Origin: a virus
DNA: 37,052 nt
IMG/VR virus record: IMGVR_UViG_3300024520_000231
Location: 1 to 37,052 of that record
Strand: one strand, 5' to 3'
The notes beneath the pieces were generated by a model, which searched no databases, was not told where the DNA came from, and saw only the letters and a list, made by a program, of their open reading frames with translations. The position numbers and the translations under genes are program-made. This document shows, one piece after another, positions 1 to 37,052 of this stretch; position 1 is the stretch's first letter, and every line of letters begins with the position of its first letter.

Positions 1-731
1 CTTGGAGTAAACACGGTATTACCAGCTATTCTAACTTCTTTATCTTGTGAAATTCTTAATGCTTCAACTGGTGTTGCAGATCAGTCAGGTGTTGTTTTAA
101 AAACAATTCTTCATGGCATATCTCATGCTCATGGTGTCCCATCTACTTCAAAATCTATTTGTGAAGCTATTTCATAATCAGTTCCATCATGTCATAAAGC
201 ATCTATACGTCATACTATATCTCATGACTGTACAATTGTTTCTGACGCTTCTGATCATCTACTTCTTACAAGTAATAAATGCGATCAAAATCAAGCAGTA
301 TCAGAATGCCTATGTAATGTGTTTTCAGCTAAGTCAGTAGCTCATTCAGCATGAACAGAAAATGTTGATCAAAATGTTGTTCATCATATTGTTATAGTAT
401 TTTCAGTAGCAGCAACTCATACTCATAATCTATTATTTACTTCATCAAATACAACTCAAGAAGTACTACCTAATATAACAAATCATTTAGTAGCATCACC
501 AGTAGAAGATAATGTTAAATCATCTCAACTAGCGGTTCATCAAGTTATAGTTATACCTCATGAAACTCAAGTTAATGCGTTTACTCATGTAATATTATCA
601 GAATCATCTATTAAAACGGTACTATCCTGTAAATCATCTCATCAGGTTCAATTCCATCTAACAATAGCATTATCGGTAGACGAAGCTGCTCCTCATTCTC
701 ATAAACCATCAGGTATTGAATAAATATCCAT
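1..731 (-). CDS. Tail fibre protein, N-terminal part (continues across the window edge)
   Basis: The ATG at 731 opens a frame that runs off the left edge; it begins 7 bases after the preceding gene stops. It starts with a module seen again in the 748-residue fibre (STDNA, then a DSTVLIDDSDN-like stretch) and later carries a second shared module (DGTPGAGD, then RISQDK). Low-complexity Gly/Thr/Ser composition and position among virion genes suggest a fibre or tail-surface protein. Most glycines are TGA. The frame continues exactly into the open frame at 37052 if the molecule is circular, giving about 488 residues in all. The fibre role is inferred from composition and the shared modules; no enzymatic domain was recognised. 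Confidence 0.75.
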
Positions 732-1309: not shown

Positions 1310-3556
1310 TTAAGATTCTAAATTTGATAGCCTTGATTCTAATTCCTGTACTTTTTTAATAAGTAGTAAACATAATCTTGAATATTGTACGCTTTCAGGT
1401 TGTCATTCATTGTTTTTTACAACAAAATTAGGATATAATTCTTCTAATTCTTCAGCTATAAGTCCATATTCATGACCTGATCCATTTTTAAAATCATATT
1501 CTTTTATAACTATTTGATCAAAGTTATCTGTAGTCAATGAACTGTCTACTATATTTTCTTTATATCTCTTAGATGAAGTAACTGAATGAAGTTCATTTGA
1601 TCCGTTTATATTAACATCGGTTGATGCGGCTGCTGCTAAAAGATTATTCATGAAAATTCCTCCGTCAGACTGAATAGTCATTCTATCCGTACCAGTTGTC
1701 GTTGTGCTTGTAGCCCCTGTCATGAGATGTATGGTTGTAGCTGCATTAGCTTGTGCTGGTTGACCTCCTATATAAAGATCGTTTAGCCCACTAGCAGTTT
1801 TAGCAGCAATCATTGCCATTGGTTCTTCAGCAGCAGTATAATGTTGTGCCACCATTCCAACTCTTTGAATAGTAGCATCAGTTTTAACTCCTGTAAGTCT
1901 GATATTCCTATAGTCATTAGAACCACCTCCATATATAACATCTAAAGGATCTTCTGGGCTTGTTATTCCTATTCCTACAAATCCTAAATCCCCCGAATAA
2001 GTCAAACCTGTTGTATTTATAGTAAAATCGTCTCCTGCTCCTGTTCCTATCGTTACATTTAAAGCTGCATCGGTAGCTGTTAAACCTAATGCATTTCATG
2101 AAGTTGTAGTTATTGTATCTGAATCAATTGAAAGATTGTCTATTGTCAAACCAGCATTTGCCGTCACTGCTCCTGTAACTCCAAGAGTTCCAGCCATTGT
2201 TATTGCTTTATCCTGTGATATTCGCATCGCTTCTGCTGGTGCAGCTGATCCATCTGGAGTAGTTGCAAAAATAATTCTTCAAGGAGCATCTCATGCTCAA
2301 GGAGTACCGTCTATTTCAACTCTTATTTCTGCTGCCTCTGATTCAAAATCAGCTCAATCATCAATTCAAAAATATAATTTTCCTATAATATCATCATCCG
2401 CAACTATAGTATTTGATCCTATTGTAGCATTTCTTGATTTTACATATCTTAAAGTTGGTGGTTGAGTATTAGCACTCCATCTACCTAAAGTAATACTAGA
2501 ATCATATGCATCTGTTCCTAATACCTGAATTGCACCTGTTCCACCATTAACAGTAGCCCCTGTAGCATCTCCAACAATAATATCTCCTGTATCACCTTGA
2601 TAAACAAATCAAGTAGTATTTATAGTAAAATCGTCTCCTGCTCCTGTTCCTACTGTTACATTAAGAGCAGCATCTGTAGCTGTTAATCATAAAGCACCTG
2701 TAGAAGTTAATACATCAGCATTTAAAGTTGTATTATCAGCCGCTAAAGAAGCTGCTGTTACAGCTCCAGCAAAAGTTGCCCCCGAACTTGCCAATGTAAT
2801 TGCCGTTGCTCCTGCAACTCCAATAAGCATAGTATCACTTGCATGACGATATTTTATTAACCCTATATCATTATCGCCACTATCCCCAAAAAAGATATTA
2901 CTATTTGCTGTTATTCCTGCCAAAATACTAAAACCTACATCTCAACTCCCTTCAATAATAACATCATCCGCCTCCGTACTAGCGGTTGCACCAGAAGAAG
3001 CCGATTTAATATGAAGTAACGCTAAAGGGTCAGCAACACCAATTCCAACTTGTCCTGTATCACCCTCATAAACAAAACCAGAAGTATTTATAGTGAAGTC
3101 ATCTCATACTCATGTACCAACAGTAATGGGTAAAGCAGCGTCGGTTGATATTATTCCATTACCAGCCATATCAATCCCTTGATCAAATGTCCATGAACTA
3201 GTAGCATTTAACCATTGTATAATTTTATCTGTATCTCATTTTAAGGTTATACCTCATGTGTCTGCATTAGCATTAGTAGGACTAGCTACACTATTAAGTT
3301 CTATATTAGGATCATCTACAGTTAAAGTAGCAGTATTTAATGTTGTAGTTGTTCAATTTACAGTTAAATCTCAAGTAACAGTTAAATCATTAACTCAAGT
3401 CATATTATCAGAATCATCAATAAGAACTGATGAGTCTTGTAATGTTGAACCAGATGTTCAATCCCATCTTGCTACTGCATTATCAGTAGACCCTCATGAA
3501 GGACCATCAAAATCTGATTCTAGTGTAGGTAACGCTGTTACCGCTAAGTTTGACAT
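1310..3556 (-). CDS. Tail fibre/spike with C-terminal S74 intramolecular chaperone
   Basis: A 748-residue protein. The N-terminal part is built from fibre modules; a unit containing GDDFTINT and then GDTG occurs three times. The last 90 or so residues match the peptidase S74 (endosialidase-type) chaperone: SSKRYKENI near residue 660 holds the expected self-cleavage serine, followed by HEYGLIAEELEELYPNFV and a coiled-coil end (IKKVQELESRL). S74 domains assist trimerisation of a fibre or spike and are then cleaved off. The N-terminal module also occurs in the gene at 731. About 26 consecutive glycines, from roughly position 2098 down to 1403, use only GGN codons although TGA is common elsewhere in the gene, which suggests module exchange. 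Confidence 0.88.
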
Positions 3557-4467: not shown

Positions 4468-7053
4468 TTATACAACAGCATAACTGTTACCTCCGATTAT
4501 TGACCAACCAAGTGTAGCTTGATATACAAACATAACTGTATCTCATGCAGCATTTAAAGTAACACTTGTTCACCCTAAGAATGTAGCAGGAGTAATAGTT
4601 GCTACTCATGTAGCTGATTTAAGTACACATATTTGAATTTGTCATACTGTACCATTAGCAAGAGTAAATATATCACCACCTGCATCAGAATCAATATCAT
4701 GTACTGTTTTAGTAAGATCAAGTGCAGTAGTTGTTCAACCAGCAGCAATTGTTTCAGTACCTCAATATATTACAGCAGCGTCTAGAGATGTAGTTCAAGA
4801 AACAGTTAATGTTTCATCTAAAGTTACAGTACCAGCGTCAACCTTAATAGCTTCAACATTTGTTCAAGTACAATTAATATAAAGTCCATTAGCTCAAGTT
4901 GTACCAGCTCAAGTGTTTTGTTCAATTGCTAATATATTTGAAGTAGAACTTATAGAACCAGTAGACTCAAGTCTTACTAGGTCAGCACCAGCTACTAAAT
5001 TTCAAGTTCAAACAGCATTAATTGCATTTCATTCTCATGAAACTCAAGTACCAGCAGTATTGATAGCGATTGCCATACCAGCTACATTTGTACCCATATT
5101 TAAATCAATAGCGTTTCAAGTAGATGCAGCAGTTCAATAAGTAATATCTATAATATTTGAATCTAATAATCCATCTTGATTAATATCAATAATATGATCA
5201 TCAGTTCAAGCATCAGTTCAACCTCATGTAACTAAAATTACTGGAGCAGTTCTAGCTCATGCAGTTGTAATTGCTACAGCATTTCAAGCTAAATTAGATC
5301 ATGTAGCAATATTAATTGCGTTACCTGTTGCAGCAGCTGAATAATTTATATCCATGATATTTCATGTTGTTACACCTGATACATTAATATCGAATGTATG
5401 TGAATTACTTGTAGATCCATCATTAATTTCAATAAAATCATCTGTTCTAGCTCAAGCTCATGTTAAAATTAAAGCTTTAGCAGCTACAGCAGAAGTAAGA
5501 TCAACAACTATTGCATCTCAAGTTGCAGCAGCAGAATAAACTATATCGATTACTGATCATGTAAATACAGAAGATACATCTATATCAAATACATCTGATG
5601 TTCCTCAAGCTCAAGTATTAGATACGTTAATATCGAAACAAGGTACTTGTCCATCACCATCAAAAGTGATTTCAACTAAGTCATCTGTTCTAGTTCCACC
5701 ACCTGCATCTAAGAAGATAGCTTTACCAGCAACTGATGCATCCATGTCTACATTAATAACATTTCAAGTAGCAGCAGCCGAACAAACAACATCAACGATG
5801 TTACCAGTTCTAATTCAAGTTATATCTATATCTAATACAGATCCTGATCAAGTATTAGCAGCTACAACAGCGATTGTATCTACATTACCATCTCAATCAT
5901 CCTTGAATTCTAATAAGTTTGCAGTTCTTGTACCAGCACCAGCATCTATATAAATAGCGTTAGCAGCTAATCAAGCATTCATATCAATATCTAGAGCAGC
6001 TTGACCTGTTATAGCACCATCAACAGATAAGTCTATTAATGAAGCTGAAGAAGTAGAGTCAGTTATAACTTCTACCATAGGTTGTGTTCTTACTCATGAT
6101 CACTCAACATGGATTCATGTCATAGCTACAGCGTTATCTAAGTTCATATTAATTACGTTTCATGTTGCAGCAGCAGCAGAAGCGAAATCAAATACATTAC
6201 CAGTATAAATACCAGTTAAATCTACATCTATAATTTGTGCAGATCATGTTGAATCATCGTTAATATCGATTACAGGAGCAGTTCTTATTCAAGTTCATCT
6301 AACAGCTTGTAATACAGTTGTATCAATACCATCAGCGTTATCTAAAGTAGCCTTAACTACGAAAGACGCAGAAGAACCGTTATAAGTTTCTTGATAATCT
6401 AATCAAATAGAAGCACCTGATCATGATTTATCTATATTAACAACAGAATGATTTCAAGTAGAATTATCTGTTACTAAAACATCTGAACCAGTTCTAGCTC
6501 ATGCTCCAGCATCAATAAAGATTGCTTCAGCAGCTATACCTAAATTCATATCTAATGCAATAGCATTACCAGTTAATGCAGCATCTATACTTATATCTAG
6601 AACATTTCATGAACCAGCACCATCTTTAGTTAAATCTAAAGTAGCTAAAGCTCAAGTTGTAGAATCAGTTAATGCCATAGCACCTGAATCTACATCTATA
6701 GTTTGGTCTATTGAATAAGCTGAATCAAGACCTCAAGTTGGTGAACCACTTCATGAACTTCAAGCTATTAAGTCAAAGTTTGATGAAGTATTAGTACCAA
6801 CATTTTCATAAAGACCACTTGTTCCAGCAGAAACATCAGTGTCTCTATATAAACATCATTTAGCATAACCAGAAGCTCAATCTGTAATAGTTACAGTACC
6901 ATAAGCTCTTAAAATATCACCATCAGCATCTCTTTCTTGTGCGAACACATCTTGAGAGTTAATAGTTTCTTTTCTTCACTCTGGGTATAATACTGAATTA
7001 GCTAAACGAACGTTTCGGTTGAACATTTTTCAACCACTAAATTTATTTGCCAT
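4468..7053 (-). CDS. Large repetitive virion protein (fibre or capsid-surface type)
   Basis: An 861-residue protein. After a distinct N-terminal part of about 60 residues (MANKFSGGKMFNRNVRLANS) comes a long array of degenerate repeats of roughly 30 to 40 residues. The recurring pieces are an A(A)TGN(A/V)I step, a D/N-rich strand and the stretch GAGARTDD or a variant. This periodic beta pattern suggests a beta-solenoid or elongated fibre. The C-terminal 100 residues are different and end GNSYAVV. TGA supplies many of the repeat glycines. It is encoded directly after the major capsid gene, separated by a terminator hairpin, so it may be a head fibre or an abundant surface protein; that role is inferred. 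Confidence 0.8.
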
Positions 7054-7072
7054 AATTTGTGTTTATTAATAA

Positions 7073-7108
7073 TTAAAACAGAAGTTGGGGCGGCGAAACC
7101 CCGAACTT
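7073..7108 (-). terminator. Rho-independent terminator after the capsid gene
   Basis: AAGTT-GGGG (7082-7090) pairs with CCCC-g-AACTT (7099-7108), a 9-bp stem with one bulge and an 8-base loop. On the minus strand it is followed by TGTTTTAATTATT. This fits partial termination between the abundant capsid protein and the next virion gene. Confidence 0.75.
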
Positions 7109-7132
7109 ACTTACCAGCTTGTGTTAGGTTAA

Positions 7133-8341
7133 TTAACTATAAGTATCAGATCTAAGTTGAACGTCTACTAATTGATTAGCTCAATCTGTAAATGTTTTAA
7201 CTCAATATAATACTCAGTTAAGAATATTTACTCATAATTTTGTTTCAACTTCTCTTATTCTTAAACTTGGTTCTGATTGCATAACTAATGTTGTACCTCA
7301 TTTAGAACCGAATAAACAGTGTTGTTTTTCTAATGTAGCTGTCCAAGTATCTGTACCATCTGTAAAAGTTTCTGAAAGTACTAATACTCATGTTCATTTA
7401 GCTACAAGAGTCATTGTGTCAGCTGAATTATCATTAGTTGCTGTATAATTAGAATCTAATACTCTTTGGTTAGCAGTTGAAACAGCAACTTGGTTAGCAT
7501 CTGTTGTTGATGGATCATTGATTGCAGAAGTAAGGTTTGCTCTAGCTACATCAGCAGATCATCCAATAAGAACATTACCAGCTGTAGACCCTATAGTAGT
7601 TTTGAAAGTAAAAGTTATACCATCAATTACTACAGTATCACCATCAGTTGGTTGAGTAGCCATAGCTAAAGTAGCAGAACCACTTAATTGGTTTGAACTA
7701 AATAATTTGAATCCATAGAAAGAACCAATGAATCAGTTAGCGTTAGCTACATCACCCATTTGTGTATCTCTACCTGCTCCATATTGAACTAGAATCTCTT
7801 CGAATTCAGGTGAAACAGCTCCAAATAAATTGTTTAAAGGAACATTTTGTTTAGCGATTTTTCTTTTCGCTGCAGCTACAACTTCTAGAACGTTAGAAGT
7901 AGTTAATGAAATTCAGTTTCCTGAAGTACCACCGATTTCCCCATCATCTACTGATGAAGTGCTATTTGCATATTGTCATAGAACGTCTGTATCTACTTGG
8001 TTAGCAAGCTTGATTCAAGCATCTCTACCATAGTTTGCAGCTAAGTTATAATTAGATTGTACTTTATCGAAGTCATCTATATAGAACCCAGTAGCAAATT
8101 CTGAATTGATACTTAATTGTTCTTGAGTATCTGTTAAATCATCGATAGTGATTGATGTTCATCTTGTATAAGATTGAACATTGATTGCTGATCTATAAGG
8201 TTTATTAAAAGTGTCTCCTCTTGAAAGTTGAGCTTTAGGAGTCATGTCTGTTATCATTTGTGCGATATTAGTTTTATGAAAAACTATTTGTTGCTCTCTA
8301 GCCCAAATCTCTGGGAAATCAGCTGTAAAACTATTTGCCAT
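7133..8341 (-). CDS. Major capsid protein, HK97 fold (P22/T7-coat-like), with an inserted domain
   Basis: A 402-residue protein. The N-terminal part is typical of podovirus coat proteins (ADFPEIWAREQQIVF, then SYTRGTSITIDDLTDTQEQL, then FYIDDFDKVQ). The central FGAVSPEFEEILVQYG and the end match the same class. Between about residues 227 and 330 lies an insertion beginning PTDGDTVVIDGITFTF with an NVLIGG-type strand, a beta domain of the kind found in phage surface proteins and probably displayed on the capsid exterior. The gene lies directly after the scaffold gene, the usual order. Glycines use GGT, GGA and TGA together. Confidence 0.88.
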
Positions 8342-16343: not shown

Positions 16344-19300
16344 CTACTTTTCTTCTTCTTCTTTTAAATTATTGATAATACTCCCAAGTAAAGCTTTTTC
16401 TATTCATGATAATTTAAGATTGTTTTTTATCTTACCCATTATTCATCTTCATGCTCTATTAGATAATGCTTTAGCTAATCCTGATTGAAATTTTGTTGAA
16501 GAAAGAAATCTTTTTCATACTATAATTCATGCTGCTGTGGCAATAGACGAGAGTCAAAGTCATAAAACCGTACCTGATGCTCAAGCAGATGATATAACTC
16601 ATTCTGAAAATGTTGGCTTAAGTCCTTTTGTTTGTTTTTTATCTAACATATTAACTAATTCAGTAGCAACCTGAGTATCTTTATTAAGTTCTTTTACCCT
16701 TTTAAATCACGCTTCAGCTGCCTCTCCTTCAATAGATTTTTGAAGTTTTGCTCTTAGATTTTCTAATCATTCTGCCTTTAATTGATCCTTTAATACTAAA
16801 GATTTTTTATATAAAGGAATAGTTTTTACTAAAAGTCTTTTTACTTTATTTCTTTCTGATAAAGTTAATCCTGTTTTTTTACTTTTTTGTAACAATTTAT
16901 TAACAACATCTAATCTTTCTTCTAATCATCATATATTTTTTAATTTTTTTATTACTTCTCATAAGATTTGATTTACTACAGGATCATTCTTGGTTCACTT
17001 TATTTTAGCTAGTCAACTATCAATTGAATCCTTACTCTTCTTAGATAGCGTTTTAAGCTGGTTAAAGATAGATTTCTGTGTTCATGATATTCATTTTTCT
17101 AGAATAAATACTCCTGGTTCTCTTCATAATACATTTGGTTCTTTTATTGCTAAAATCTGTGCGTCGGTTAATCATAATGATCTAGTTGCTTTAGTAATAT
17201 CAATTCACGATAATTGTCATAATGTTTTTATTGAAGTCTTTATTCCTTTTCATACAGCTATAGTTCATAATCATCATAATAATCAAGCAAATTGTTCTTT
17301 CTCTTCTTCAGATAATTGTTCCATATAACCCTCTACTAATTGATTTTCTTCTGCTAAGAATTTTCATCATTCTGTAGCTACATCTTGAACATACTCTAAG
17401 TATCATTTAGCTGTATCATTTTCTTTAGCTGTTTCTATTGCTATACTAGTATATGGATATGCTACTATAAAAGACCCCGCAACTCATGCTGTAATGATTT
17501 TGTTTATGTCTGTTGCTACATTGGTATCAAAAACTAAATTATCTCCTTTAAAATTCTCTTTTGTTATTGGTTTTTTCCCTGCCTTTTCTCTTATCATATT
17601 AGCAACGTTCACTATTCCCTTTTGTCATAATCATGCTAATCATTCTACAATTCTATCCGCTGCCGATATAACTGATTTTGCTGTTCCTACAACTCATTTA
17701 GCTGCAACGTCTAATCATTTTGAAACCTCAGGAAATCATGCTAACTCAGCTAGTTTACTAAGAGCGGTTTTATGTTTAGAGCTTTTTACTTGTGGCAAAT
17801 CTGTTTTTGGTTTTGATGTATCAGATTTTAAAGATTGTTGTTTCACTGTTTGTATAGGCCTTGGATCTTCTTTAACTAGTTTAGATCAAATATCTTTACT
17901 TATTTGCTCTACTCTAGCGTGTGCTGATTTATCTGTTTGATATACTCAAAAGAATTCTTTTCATCCACTACTTACTCAACTAGCCAATTCCTTAGGTGTT
18001 GGAGCTCTTTTTTCTCCAGTAATTCTCTTAAAAGCTGCTGTTCTTCTTGATAAATTTTCAGCTACTGCATCAACTCATTCATTTATAGTCTTAAATCAGG
18101 CAACAGCATTTGTTCAGAATCTATCAAACTGTCATACATTTCAAGGATTATTATTCTTTGCTCATATTCATCTAGTTCAAAAACCACTATCGTTTTGCAT
18201 AAATGCCATTATAGTTTCTTGTGGAATTCAATACTTTAAAGCAGAATCATTTATCATTTTAGGAGTAATTGTAGTTCATTTAAATCTTTGTAATACTGTA
18301 GCTATAGTACCTTCTTTAGCAGGCGTAATTCATCATTTTGACACTCATTGTGGTTGTATTCATCATTTTGACACTCATTGTGGTTGTATTCATTGTGTTT
18401 TAAGTCCAGTTTCTCTTTTTTCTACTCATGTTACAGCTCTTTTAAAATCATCGATAGAATCAAATCAAAAATCTTTAGCCTTTCATTGTAATATGCTATT
18501 ATATTCATTTAACATATTGTCTACCGACTTATTAAACCTCTTATCTGATTGTGATACATTTGGTATAAATTTAAGCAACCTAGCAGCTTCTTGTGCACTA
18601 ACAGCAGTTCAAGCCATATTCTTTAAGATGTTAGATAAGTTTTCTCATGTTAATATATCAAGTTCTATAAAGTCTCATGTATCAACATCAGCAAATTCTT
18701 TTCATTGGTTTGCAAGTGCTGCCAAAGGTCAGGTGTCAACTGTTTCTTTTAGTTTTTTAATTCTATCTAAACTGTCAGAAACCTTAAATAATCATTGTAG
18801 TTTTTCGAAATCTTTAGTTGGTAATTGTTGAAATTTCAGGCTTCATCCTCTTTCTTGACGTAATTCTGTCAATCTTGTACTTACAGCACTTCTTAATCAT
18901 TTAGGATTATCTGGAACACTTGATATACTAGCCTCTCAATTAAGAATATTAGACGCCCAATCATTAATTAATGCTTCAGTTGTTCATTTAGCTGGTTTTC
19001 ATGTAGCTCAAATCCCTACTCATACAGCAGGAGCTCATGGTTGTCATTTTTGTATTCGTGTTATAGCTTCTTTTATTATAGAATCTCAGTTTTCTAAACC
19101 TTTAACTATATTATTAGCTGCATCACTAATATTTCAAAATGGATCTATTAAGTTATTTACTATAAAATCAACTATAGCTTCATCATCTTCATCAAGTTCT
19201 TTTCATTCTCATGTAATTCATTTAGATCTCCTAAATACCTCAGCCTTTATAGCTTCTGCATTTTTCATGTCTTTAATTAAATTAAACGCTGTTGCATTAG

Positions 19301-20465
19301 GTGTACCATCTTTATTAAATCAGTTATTTAGTAAAAATTCAACTGTTGATTCCTCCTCTTTAGTAAATTGAACTGCCCGTTCATCTCAGAATTTGTCCTT
19401 AGCCCTTAATATAGCCTGTTTAATTATTTCAGTACTATTAGGAAGATCTTTAATCATTTTCATAACAGAATCTTTCATTTCTCAATCAGCAGTGAATCAT
19501 TGAGTAGCTATAAAATCAACTATTCATTCTTCGTCAGCTGATAATTTTACTGGTTTTGTTTTAATGGCATCTAATGTAGTTAATAGATTATCTAATGCAG
19601 CTAGTCATTTAACTTTAGCTTCTTTATTTGCTTTAGCTGTTAAAGCTACTGATTTTAATACAAATGCTCTATTTTCTTTTTCTAATTCTCTTTCTTGTGC
19701 CTTCAATCATTCTATAAACTCTCATTCTTCTTCTAATGCTTCTGCTTCAAATATTTTTTGTTGTAAATTAAATTGAGCTCTTTGTGTAGCTATAGCACTT
19801 TCAACTCTTTGAGCTATATCAGCACGTCTGCCAGCAGCAAATGTAGACCTACCAAATCAAGAAAATGATAACACATCTTGTGCAGCCTGTATTTCTCTTT
19901 CTCAAGAAGCTCTTAAGACTGCAGCTTCTTCAGCTTGTTTAGCTTTTAAAGCCTTTCTACTTTCTTCAATTAATTTTTGTGTTTTTTGTTTTCTTTCTCA
20001 AGTTAGTCTTACGTTTTCTGCTTTTAATTCAGCACTTTGCTTTTCTTGTTCCTCTCTCTCTGCAGTAATAACAGGATCTTCTGGAACTTCTCATGCTTCT
20101 CAAAAAGTATCTTCTCATAAAGCCCTAGATATTTTAATCTGTGAAACAAACTTTCTTTCTTCATCAGTTACATCTTCTCATAAATCAATTCTATTAGCTA
20201 TATCTTTAAATGTTTCTTTATTTGCTATTCATGACTCTTGATTAAAAAAACGATTTGGATCTTCTGTAACAACAGGAGCTTCAGTAGGAGGTTTTAGAGC
20301 ATCGGGAGATCTATCAATAAGGGGTTCATCTTTATTAGCTTTTATAGGTTTTTCAGTAATACCAACATCTGTTTGAGGTATTTGAGGAGCCTCTACAACA
20401 GATTCTACTACATCAATAGGAGCAGTAGGTTTTTTCTTTTCTAGTATATTAGTTTCATTAGCCAT
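16344..20465 (-). CDS. Giant internal virion / tape-measure-like protein
   Basis: A 1373-residue protein, the largest in the window. I checked the frame codon by codon and found no TAA or TAG. It begins with a Pro/Glu-rich region (MANETNILEKKKPTAPIDVV), then long helical, coiled-coil stretches rich in Lys, Glu and Ala. The last quarter holds hydrophobic segments (IITAGVAGSFIVAYPYTSIA; FAGLLGGLGTIAVG; a final Ala/Gly-rich one ending AAGIIVGKRF). Long helices plus late membrane-like segments fit tape-measure proteins or the ejected internal proteins of podoviruses that form a DNA channel through the envelope. With no other long-tail genes, an ejection role is likelier. It contains an exact 30-bp tandem duplication. 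Confidence 0.8.
18331..18390. repeat. Exact 30-bp tandem duplication inside the giant virion gene
   Basis: 18331-18360 and 18361-18390 are identical. The duplication is in frame and repeats ten residues (GIQPQGVSKG) in the protein. Perfect identity indicates a recent slippage event. Confidence 0.95.
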
Positions 20466-33691: not shown

Positions 33692-33997
33692 ATGTTTTCA
33701 GAAGAGCATGGTGACTTCATAGACCTACTATGAAAAAAGAAAGATCTAAAATGATTATTAATACAAAAAAAACTTATTGATTTTGTTACAACTAAAAAAA
33801 ATAGTGAACGATTAGAAAAGTTGAATATAAAAATTCAATTAACCATTAAAGAAGTCTCTAAAGATATTAATATATTAACCCAACTTCTTTGAAAAACTAT
33901 AACAGAAATTAATAATAATACGAATGATTCAACAGAATTACTTGAATTACAGTATATAAGGAATGAAATATTATTTATATTACATAGATCTTATTAA
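33692..33997 (+). CDS. Helical coiled-coil protein, unknown
   Basis: A 101-residue protein (MFSEEHGDFIDLLGKKKDLK), helical and charged throughout, likely coiled coil from about residue 20 to 70. Three of four glycines are TGA. It is the last gene of the rightward unit; its TAA (33995-33997) overlaps the stop of the convergent lysin gene (33994-33996). Function unknown. Confidence 0.55.
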
Positions 33998-34863
33998 TCA
34001 TCTAATAAACCAAGTCTATCTAATATTCACATAAACTGCCCTCTAGTTAATCAATCATTAGGCTTAAATGATCAATCTTGAAATCATTTAACTATTCATT
34101 TGTGTTTAGCCTTTTTAATAGCTTTAGCAAAAGGTTGACCTTCGTCTACGTCTTTAAATATCATATTGTGTTTTTGATTAAAAAATAAATATCAGTATTC
34201 AAAAAATACTCAATTCTGAATTAACTCCTTGAAGTACTTTAATGTATATATGTTAAACTTAACTAATCCAGTGTAGTTGTCTATTACTTGTATCGTAAAT
34301 AAATTATTAACACCTTGTGAAAGCTTTGTTGAAAACTTTTTTCTTATACGTACAGCATGTGAATAAGTTGTTCTTCAAAACTTTGTTCAACCTAGTACTC
34401 AATCATCATTTTTATCTTTATTGTAATTTGAATTACCGTTATATCAACACATAACACTATGTCATGAATTTAATATAGACATAAGATCTTCTCACAATAA
34501 TTTAATTCTATAAGTACTAAGTTTATCATTATTTATATCATTCCATTCTTTACGTACTAAATCAACTGCTTTATAAAAATACCACCCTTGATAAGGATCA
34601 GCTCACAAATCTATAGCTTTTCTCCATATTTCTTTAAGTTCGTTTCTTTTATAATTATATCTAGTTAAATCACTAATACATCATATAGCAGCCATTATAG
34701 TACAACAATAATTTCAAATAAGTTTTTGATTATATTCTATAGGTTCTAATTTATTACCATTACGTATTTCAAATTTAGTAGATGAATCAGTATTACCTCA
34801 AAATATATAATCTTTATAACTAGTTTTCTTAATCAATCATCAATATTTTATAGGGGCTTCCAT
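33994..34863 (-). CDS. Lysin: C39-like peptidase domain with C-terminal SLH domain
   Basis: A 289-residue protein. Residues about 40 to 200 have the layout of C39-like papain-fold peptidases: NYCCTIMAAIGC at 51-62 (candidate Cys 53 or 54), YSHAVRI with His 169, and VIDNYTG with Asp 195 or Asn 196. Residues 239 to 289 are one SLH (S-layer homology) domain: FAKAIKKAKHKGIVKGFQDG, then SFKPNDGLTRGQF. Four SLH glycines are TGA. SLH domains bind secondary cell-wall polymers, so this looks like an endolysin that cuts cross-bridges while anchored to the wall. It ends the late unit, after small membrane proteins, as expected. No signal peptide is seen, so holin-dependent release is likely. Confidence 0.75.
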
Positions 34864-36316: not shown

Positions 36317-37052
36317 TTAAGAAGGAATTATTCTAATCATAAAATTACCGTTTTCAAATGTATTATTTTGTGTTGTAACTATTTGTAATATAGTTCATTC
36401 ACCATCTCATCAGGCTATAGAAGTAGATAAATTAGCCCGTTTCCAAGCTCAGTTTTGATTATTGATTACACTGTCTTCTGTAGAATAATCAGTATTCATG
36501 TCTGTTATAGCTGTAGGCGGTGTAGGGTCTGCTGCTGCATTATAAGTCCATCAAGTAGCTTTATGGTGTAATAATGAAACATTAGCACTAGCATCTGTAG
36601 CTCATCATCTCCATGTAGCCTCAAATCATTGTATTTCAAAATTATTATTGTTATTATCCCAATATTTAGATAATCACCAATTACAAGTTTTAGCTGTTCA
36701 AGATGTATGATCTATACTTACTGCTCATATCCATTTTTTATCTGTTTCTACATAATCTCATACAGAAGCAGGGTGTGTAAATACTACAGCTTCTGTATCA
36801 CTTGTAGTTCTAACTCACGCATCTGTTACACTTGTTCATGTAAATGTTACAGTTAAGGTGTCGACCGTAGCTGCTCATAATACTAAAAACGCATGTGCTC
36901 AATATGCTCAATTAGCAGTTCATATTGTTTGTGTAGCAGTAAAATCATTATTAGTTCATGAAAATATATAATATCATCATATATAAAAAGTACCACTTCA
37001 TCATCAAGGACTTGTAAAAGACCATACTTTTTCACTTGCTTGAAAGTTTCTT
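36317..37052 (-). CDS. Tail fibre protein, C-terminal part (continues at position 731-1 if circular)
   Basis: An open frame of 245 codons that enters at the right edge without a start and ends with TAA at 36317. It is beta-rich with Gly/Ser/Thr-rich turns (SPGGGSGTFYIGGYY), many aromatic residues and a WTYNAAADPTPPTAITDM segment; almost all glycines are TGA. It is in the same strand and frame as the fibre start at 731 when the ends are joined: 736 + 731 = 1467 bases = 489 codons. The C-terminal domain could be a receptor-binding tip; no named family is recognisable. Confidence 0.75.

Follow-up and report, generated by a model that had tools for sequence, protein, structure and literature searches.

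Tail fibres of phages are exchanged by domain: a conserved N-terminal anchor is kept, and the distal or receptor-binding part is swapped. A changed genetic code is usually viewed as a barrier to gene exchange. Peptidase_S74 domains, which cleave themselves, carry a Ser...Lys pair upstream of a conserved KENI block. The tail fibre described here resembles other products of fibre exchange in that it has an N-terminus with TGA use typical of its genome, a distal part of apparently different origin, and a terminal S74 chaperone. Unlike in the usual exchange, the donor was apparently of a different genetic code, a difference visible as missing TGA-glycine codons.

Predictions from CRISPR spacers link both TGA-free and TGA-rich phages to code-25 hosts, the Gracilibacteria and Absconditabacteria (Liu et al. 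2023, PMC10746230), which would provide a setting for cross-code recombination. Its TGA-reading phages share their code with the virus described here, but whole genomes are classed there; gene-level mosaics do not seem to be described, and the words capsid and tail fibre are absent from its main text. The Absconditicoccaceae phage RSA-ATP1, a tailed code-25 phage of about 39 kb, has internal UGA in 60% of its ORFs and its own tRNA-Gly(TCA) (PMC13059738). In the literature covered, which was partial, we found no report of gene-level TGA mosaics, of TGA avoidance in capsid genes, or of cross-code exchange of fibre domains in code-25 phages.

The virus and its genetic code

The window, that is, the whole stretch of DNA that was analysed, is a 37,052-base record from a viral metagenome and was translated with TGA for glycine (NCBI table 25). 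Both its open frames and the use of TGA for conserved glycines in the portals of 20 phages agree with this code; TGA makes up 504 of the 787 glycine codons in its 27 genes. A portal search yielded 21 contigs (numbered with the prefix L, as are other contigs below), all with TGA at portal-gene glycines, at fractions from 0.17 to 0.81. Since a single open frame spans both ends of the window (731 to 1, continuing from 37052 to 36317), the molecule is probably circular or circularly permuted. Unlike in RSA-ATP1, no tRNA gene was found (positions 1-37052), so the phage seems dependent on its host for the TGA-reading tRNA. Searches for a code-25 host by TerL, portal, and TGA motif, in a genome collection and in 380 genomes from the same phylum as a Parcubacteria genome, returned no convincing one.

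Two further genes of the window deserve mention. A virion-type protein of 1373 aa (16344-20465) has a weak internal Glucosaminidase match at aa 738-813, possibly a cell-wall-cutting domain. The C-terminus of the protein encoded at 33994-34863 resembles an S-layer homology repeat by eye and is a candidate only.

Table 1. Location of the fibre and capsid features discussed in the text; positions without a contig number are those of the window.
Feature	Position	Strand	Remarks
S74 tail-fibre gene	1310..3556	-	748 aa, TGA = Gly; 19 TGA / 89 Gly
N-terminal part, aa 1-110	3227..3556	-	TGA 7/11, equal to the genome rate
TGA-poor body, aa 111-748, proposed import	1313..3226	-	TGA 12/78 Gly
TGA-free run, 25 GGN glycines	1406..2095	-	aa 491 to aa 698
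TGA codon aa 487	2096..2098	-	one border of the run
TGA codon aa 718	1403..1405	-	other border of the run, within the S74 region
Peptidase_S74 / endosialidase chaperone domain	1421..1576	-	Pfam match aa 661-712, E 8.7e-9, above gathering cut-off
TGA-rich island, aa 397-426	2279..2368	-	5 TGA / 7 Gly; in a segment common to the paralogous fibre and cyanophage tail fibres
124-nt internal repeat, module 1	3053..3176	-	
124-nt internal repeat, module 2	2585..2708	-	78% identical to module 3
124-nt internal repeat, module 3	1982..2105	-	overlaps the TGA-free run in its 5' part
Paralogous fibre, first part, aa 1-243	1..731	-	continues at 37052-36317 if the contig is circular
Paralogous fibre, remainder	36317..37052	-	in frame across the contig ends
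Major capsid gene (phrog_267)	7133..8341	-	13 TGA / 35 Gly; control for expression-linked TGA avoidance
TGA-free major capsid genes of relatives	L007:12888-14090, L008:5208-6404, L012:6432-7523, L013:4376-5572, L016:4775-5953, L021:12671-13891, L023:6112-7332, L024:5265-6485, L025:8957-10153		
L021 fibre gene	L021:14335-16761		TGA-free inserted domain aa 259-632, absent from L023

Glycine codons of the S74 fibre gene

The gene has several tail-fibre PHROG matches in addition to its C-terminal Peptidase_S74 domain. According to the original prediction, about 26 glycines in a row between 2098 and 1403 use only GGN, TGA is heavily used in the flanks and in the paralogous fibre, and the tip and S74 region were recently imported from a standard-code phage, with too little time to convert the codons. 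The GGN run is real, though it counts 25 glycines (15 GGA, 7 GGT, and 3 GGG), and the ends as quoted are two TGA codons, the free stretch being 1406-2095. Heavy TGA use in the paralogous fibre was confirmed (53 of 64 glycines in the joined gene, or 0.83). The flanks of the run are another matter: only the first 110 residues are rich in TGA (7/11), with 10/51 in aa 111-486 and 2/27 in aa 487-748. A single island at aa 397-426 holds 5 of the 10 TGA codons of the middle part.

Taken together, aa 111-748 (the body) have far fewer TGA codons (12/78) than the other genes of the window (485/698; p = 1e-20), and the body also differs from the N-terminal part of its own gene (p = 0.0014). The probability of a run of 25 at the genome TGA rate is about 1e-11. 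Shuffling within the S74 gene gave p = 0.014, but shuffling within aa 110-748, with the N-terminus set aside, gave p = 0.08; a best-segment test also gave p = 0.08, and no significant difference was seen between the tip and aa 111-486 (p = 0.20). Because the run is within chance once the TGA-normal N-terminus is removed, the significant feature is the TGA-poor body, and the tract is no separate unit.

The explanation we favour, with a probability of roughly 0.5, is that the fibre is a chimera of a resident N-terminal part (about aa 1-110) and a body (about aa 111-748) whose source lacked TGA and was most likely a phage of the standard code. Import followed by incomplete conversion, as originally proposed for the tip, fits the body as a whole, with a boundary that would lie near aa 110 and not at 2098. 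Ordinary scatter of TGA use from gene to gene, with the run as the longest gap in a gene that is low by chance, appears improbable. Many relatives do show gene-to-gene variation in TGA fraction (chi2/df up to 7), and the run is unexceptional inside the body (p = 0.08), but the whole body lies far below what binomial scatter in this virus would give, and TGA use changes significantly within the gene.

The composition of the remaining codons is informative as well. GGA exceeds GGT in the body (35:21), whereas the other genes have 55:116 (p = 3e-4 in a four-codon test), and this excess of GGA matches the state expected before conversion of GGA to TGA. Overall codon use did not support a foreign origin, the non-glycine codon use of the body not being atypical (G ratio 1.26).

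The direction of change can be read from a 124-nt repeat that occurs in three copies in the gene. At the three resolvable columns, a small sample, TGA149, TGA151, and TGA316 each stand opposite GGN in both other copies, and TGA is therefore the derived state. At the position of the TGA codon aa 718, 35 of 40 standard-code relatives encode glycine as GGN. The repeat columns, aa 718, and the excess of GGA would all fit a GGN-only ancestor that is now gaining TGA. Among portal genes, whether a conserved glycine is TGA or GGN becomes nearly random once protein identity has fallen to about 80%, which implies that a TGA-free stretch is short-lived unless selected.

Because TGA is spread unevenly, with the island at aa 397-426, the body may have more than one history. 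Recent gene conversion of the island from the second fibre was considered and rejected, the same codon being used at only 12 of 27 shared non-glycine residues. A chimeric assembly is also unlikely, because TGA occurs in the same frame on both sides of the run and within the S74 region.

Relatives of the fibre

The C-terminus of the fibre (aa 661-712 of 748) matched the PF13884 profile at 36 bits, above the gathering cut-off of 22, and has the conserved SSKRYKENI...YGLIAEE block of that family. SSKRYKEN is invariant across the nine sequences aligned; where an Asp would follow the Ser, there is a second Ser. In the predicted structure, pLDDT is mostly 76-92 in the S74 part and below 50 in the rest. 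Foldseek gave no significant match for the tip model, which is of low pLDDT outside S74, and no sequence match was found in the PDB.

S74 relatives were located in 30 viral contigs and 5 genomes; the matched domain has no in-frame TGA in any of them, and the contigs read as standard code. The family is also present in 92 of 380 genomes from the phylum of G022, a Parcubacteria genome, with 0 TGA in the domain. That every relative found has a standard-code setting agrees with the proposed import of the S74 region, and no code-25 homologue with the same tract was found. At aa 718, however, the window S74 region already has a TGA-encoded glycine, unlike its relatives: there is no such case among 40 related S74 domains. 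The dominance of the standard code among relatives counts for little, because the collections searched probably contain many more standard-code contigs than code-25 ones. The nearest S74 relatives are about 40-43% identical to the window domain, and for the tip, too, identity to the relatives found did not exceed about 43%. A phylogeny of the C-terminal domain, in which the relatives are all standard-code, does not settle the position of the window sequence. With S74 relatives at about 40% identity and a tree that does not place the domain, no donor of the window fibre was identified.

No close relatives of the fibre tip (aa 525-656) were found among phage genomes. The mid part of the fibre has relatives among cyanophage fibres, with identities reaching 54%, and in contig L184. 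Viral contigs were also searched with the TGA-bearing motif DGTPGAGD in order to find code-25 fibres with the mid domain; the five matches were all judged to be chance.

A donor within code 25 must also be considered: the distal fibre could have come from a phage of a low-TGA lineage, so that the exchange took place within the code. The portal TGA fraction is only 0.17-0.31 in L004, L007, L008, L016, L017, and L025, and several genes of those lineages have GGN mixes like that of the body, with GGA and GGG present. On the other hand, no body homologue was found in code-25 contigs, either among the portal relatives or by the motif search, and fibre-type genes there are often TGA-rich (0.58-0.64 in L016 and 0.52 in L025). 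Homology to the window fibre among the 21 portal relatives is limited to aa 19-82 (the fibre N-termini of L008 and L025, with 3 TGA there). S74 was not detected in any of the 21, an absence of little weight because most of these contigs are fragments. We regard such a donor as less likely than a standard-code one.

TGA avoidance in capsid genes

A lack of TGA may also arise without any exchange. The major capsid gene has 0 TGA in 9 of 14 code-25 relatives (30-37 glycines each), with fractions of 0.3-0.8 in neighbouring genes; complete absence was not seen in the other lineages or in the window capsid (13/35). Capsid genes at 80-90% protein identity, and more distant ones, still lack TGA although other sites have changed synonymously. 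Because the absence has persisted over deep divergence despite synonymous change, it is maintained and not the mark of a recent swap, and it is best read as TGA avoidance in a highly expressed gene.

Selection of the same kind might have acted on the fibre, if decoding of UGA by tRNA-Gly is slower or less accurate and abundant virion proteins consequently use GGN. The capsid genes, TGA-free over deep divergence next to TGA-rich neighbours, speak for such selection in these phages, but its extension to the S74 fibre is quite unlikely. The N-terminus of the fibre, on the same message, is TGA-normal (p = 0.0014). GGG and GGC together make up 10 of 66 GGN codons in the fibre body as opposed to 13 of 289 in the capsids, which use mainly GGT and GGA (p = 0.004), and the balance of GGA to GGT is opposite in the two (p = 5e-6). 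In the window itself, the capsid has the higher TGA use (13/35, p = 0.014), and the second fibre reaches 0.83. The non-glycine codon use of the capsids is atypical (ratio 2.5), which is not so for the fibre body (1.26). Expression-linked avoidance as seen in the capsids (whole gene TGA-free, GGT and GGA in use, hardly any GGG or GGC) is thus not the pattern of the S74 fibre.

A clearer case of probable cross-code exchange

Swapping of a receptor-binding domain across genetic codes, originally suggested for the window fibre, is strongly supported not there but in L021, which serves as a precedent for our reading of the window fibre. L021 and L023 are sister code-25 phages, with DNA about 85% identical from TerL through the capsid gene and into the fibre N-terminus (to aa ~209); beyond aa ~209-250 their fibres diverge completely. 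In L021, none of the 36 glycine codons of aa 259-632 is TGA, compared with 21 of 40 in the gene outside that segment (p = 5e-8; permutation test on the run, p = 2e-5). With aa 255-645 as the query, the domain was found in 25 contigs at 50-67% identity; all 25 have 0 TGA in the matched stretch and read as standard code, in the gene and in the surrounding frames. Homology to them starts at aa 252-298 and mostly stops at aa 615-657; the TGA-free run has its edges close by, at aa 245 and 649. A tree nests L021 within the standard-code relatives, with L105 nearest (97/90). The 3' edge of the segment lies in a repeat common to L023 (79% over 91 nt), a possible crossover site. In the core common to the two phages, the state has changed at 17 of 116 glycine pairs; given that rate, 0 of 36 fits an arrival of the segment after, or shortly before, the split of L021 and L023. 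Together, the comparison with the sister phage, the coincidence of the edges, and the standard code of the relatives make a cross-code import by far the best reading of the L021 segment.

The proposed history of the window fibre is as follows. A resident N-terminus with TGA use typical of the genome would have come to carry a distal part ending in the S74 intramolecular chaperone. A standard-code segment should work at once in a code-25 cell, where GGN and TGA are both readable, and would need no recoding; a TGA-bearing segment in a standard-code cell would give a truncated protein. Exchange should therefore run mainly from the standard code to code 25. Since arrival, single G-to-T changes (GGA to TGA) would have converted about 15% of the glycine codons of the body, and the run at 1406-2095 would be the longest stretch still without conversion. 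A role of the swapped segments in receptor binding, in the window fibre as in L021, is suggested by their position and their family names.

On the sequences compared here, tail-fibre parts do seem to move between viruses of different genetic codes. We propose, tentatively, that code-25 phages repeatedly acquire receptor-binding parts of fibres, only in the direction from the standard code to code 25, and that missing TGA time-stamps the arrivals; the window fibre would then be partly converted and the L021 fibre fresh. If TGA-free fibre segments are recent standard-code arrivals, the code barrier is one-sided and can be crossed by parts that set host range, and the share of converted codons would be a rough clock for each swap. 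Similar events could be found in other recoded phages, provided that expression-linked avoidance is separated by means of the GGN mix and changes within genes.

Three other genes of the code-25 relatives have uneven or low TGA use. In L014, a structural gene at 5960-7657 is TGA-poor (7/56, with a run of 24); it is dominated by GGT and GGA like the capsid genes and is related to cyanophage virion proteins. A gene of L007 (1343-4045) has a sharp internal TGA step, with 48/77 in aa 666-888 and 9/54 elsewhere, and is a candidate mosaic. In a tail gene of L021, a second stretch is TGA-free (1951-2499; 0/14 glycines); a part shares 72% identity with contig L193, where in-frame TGA is scarce.
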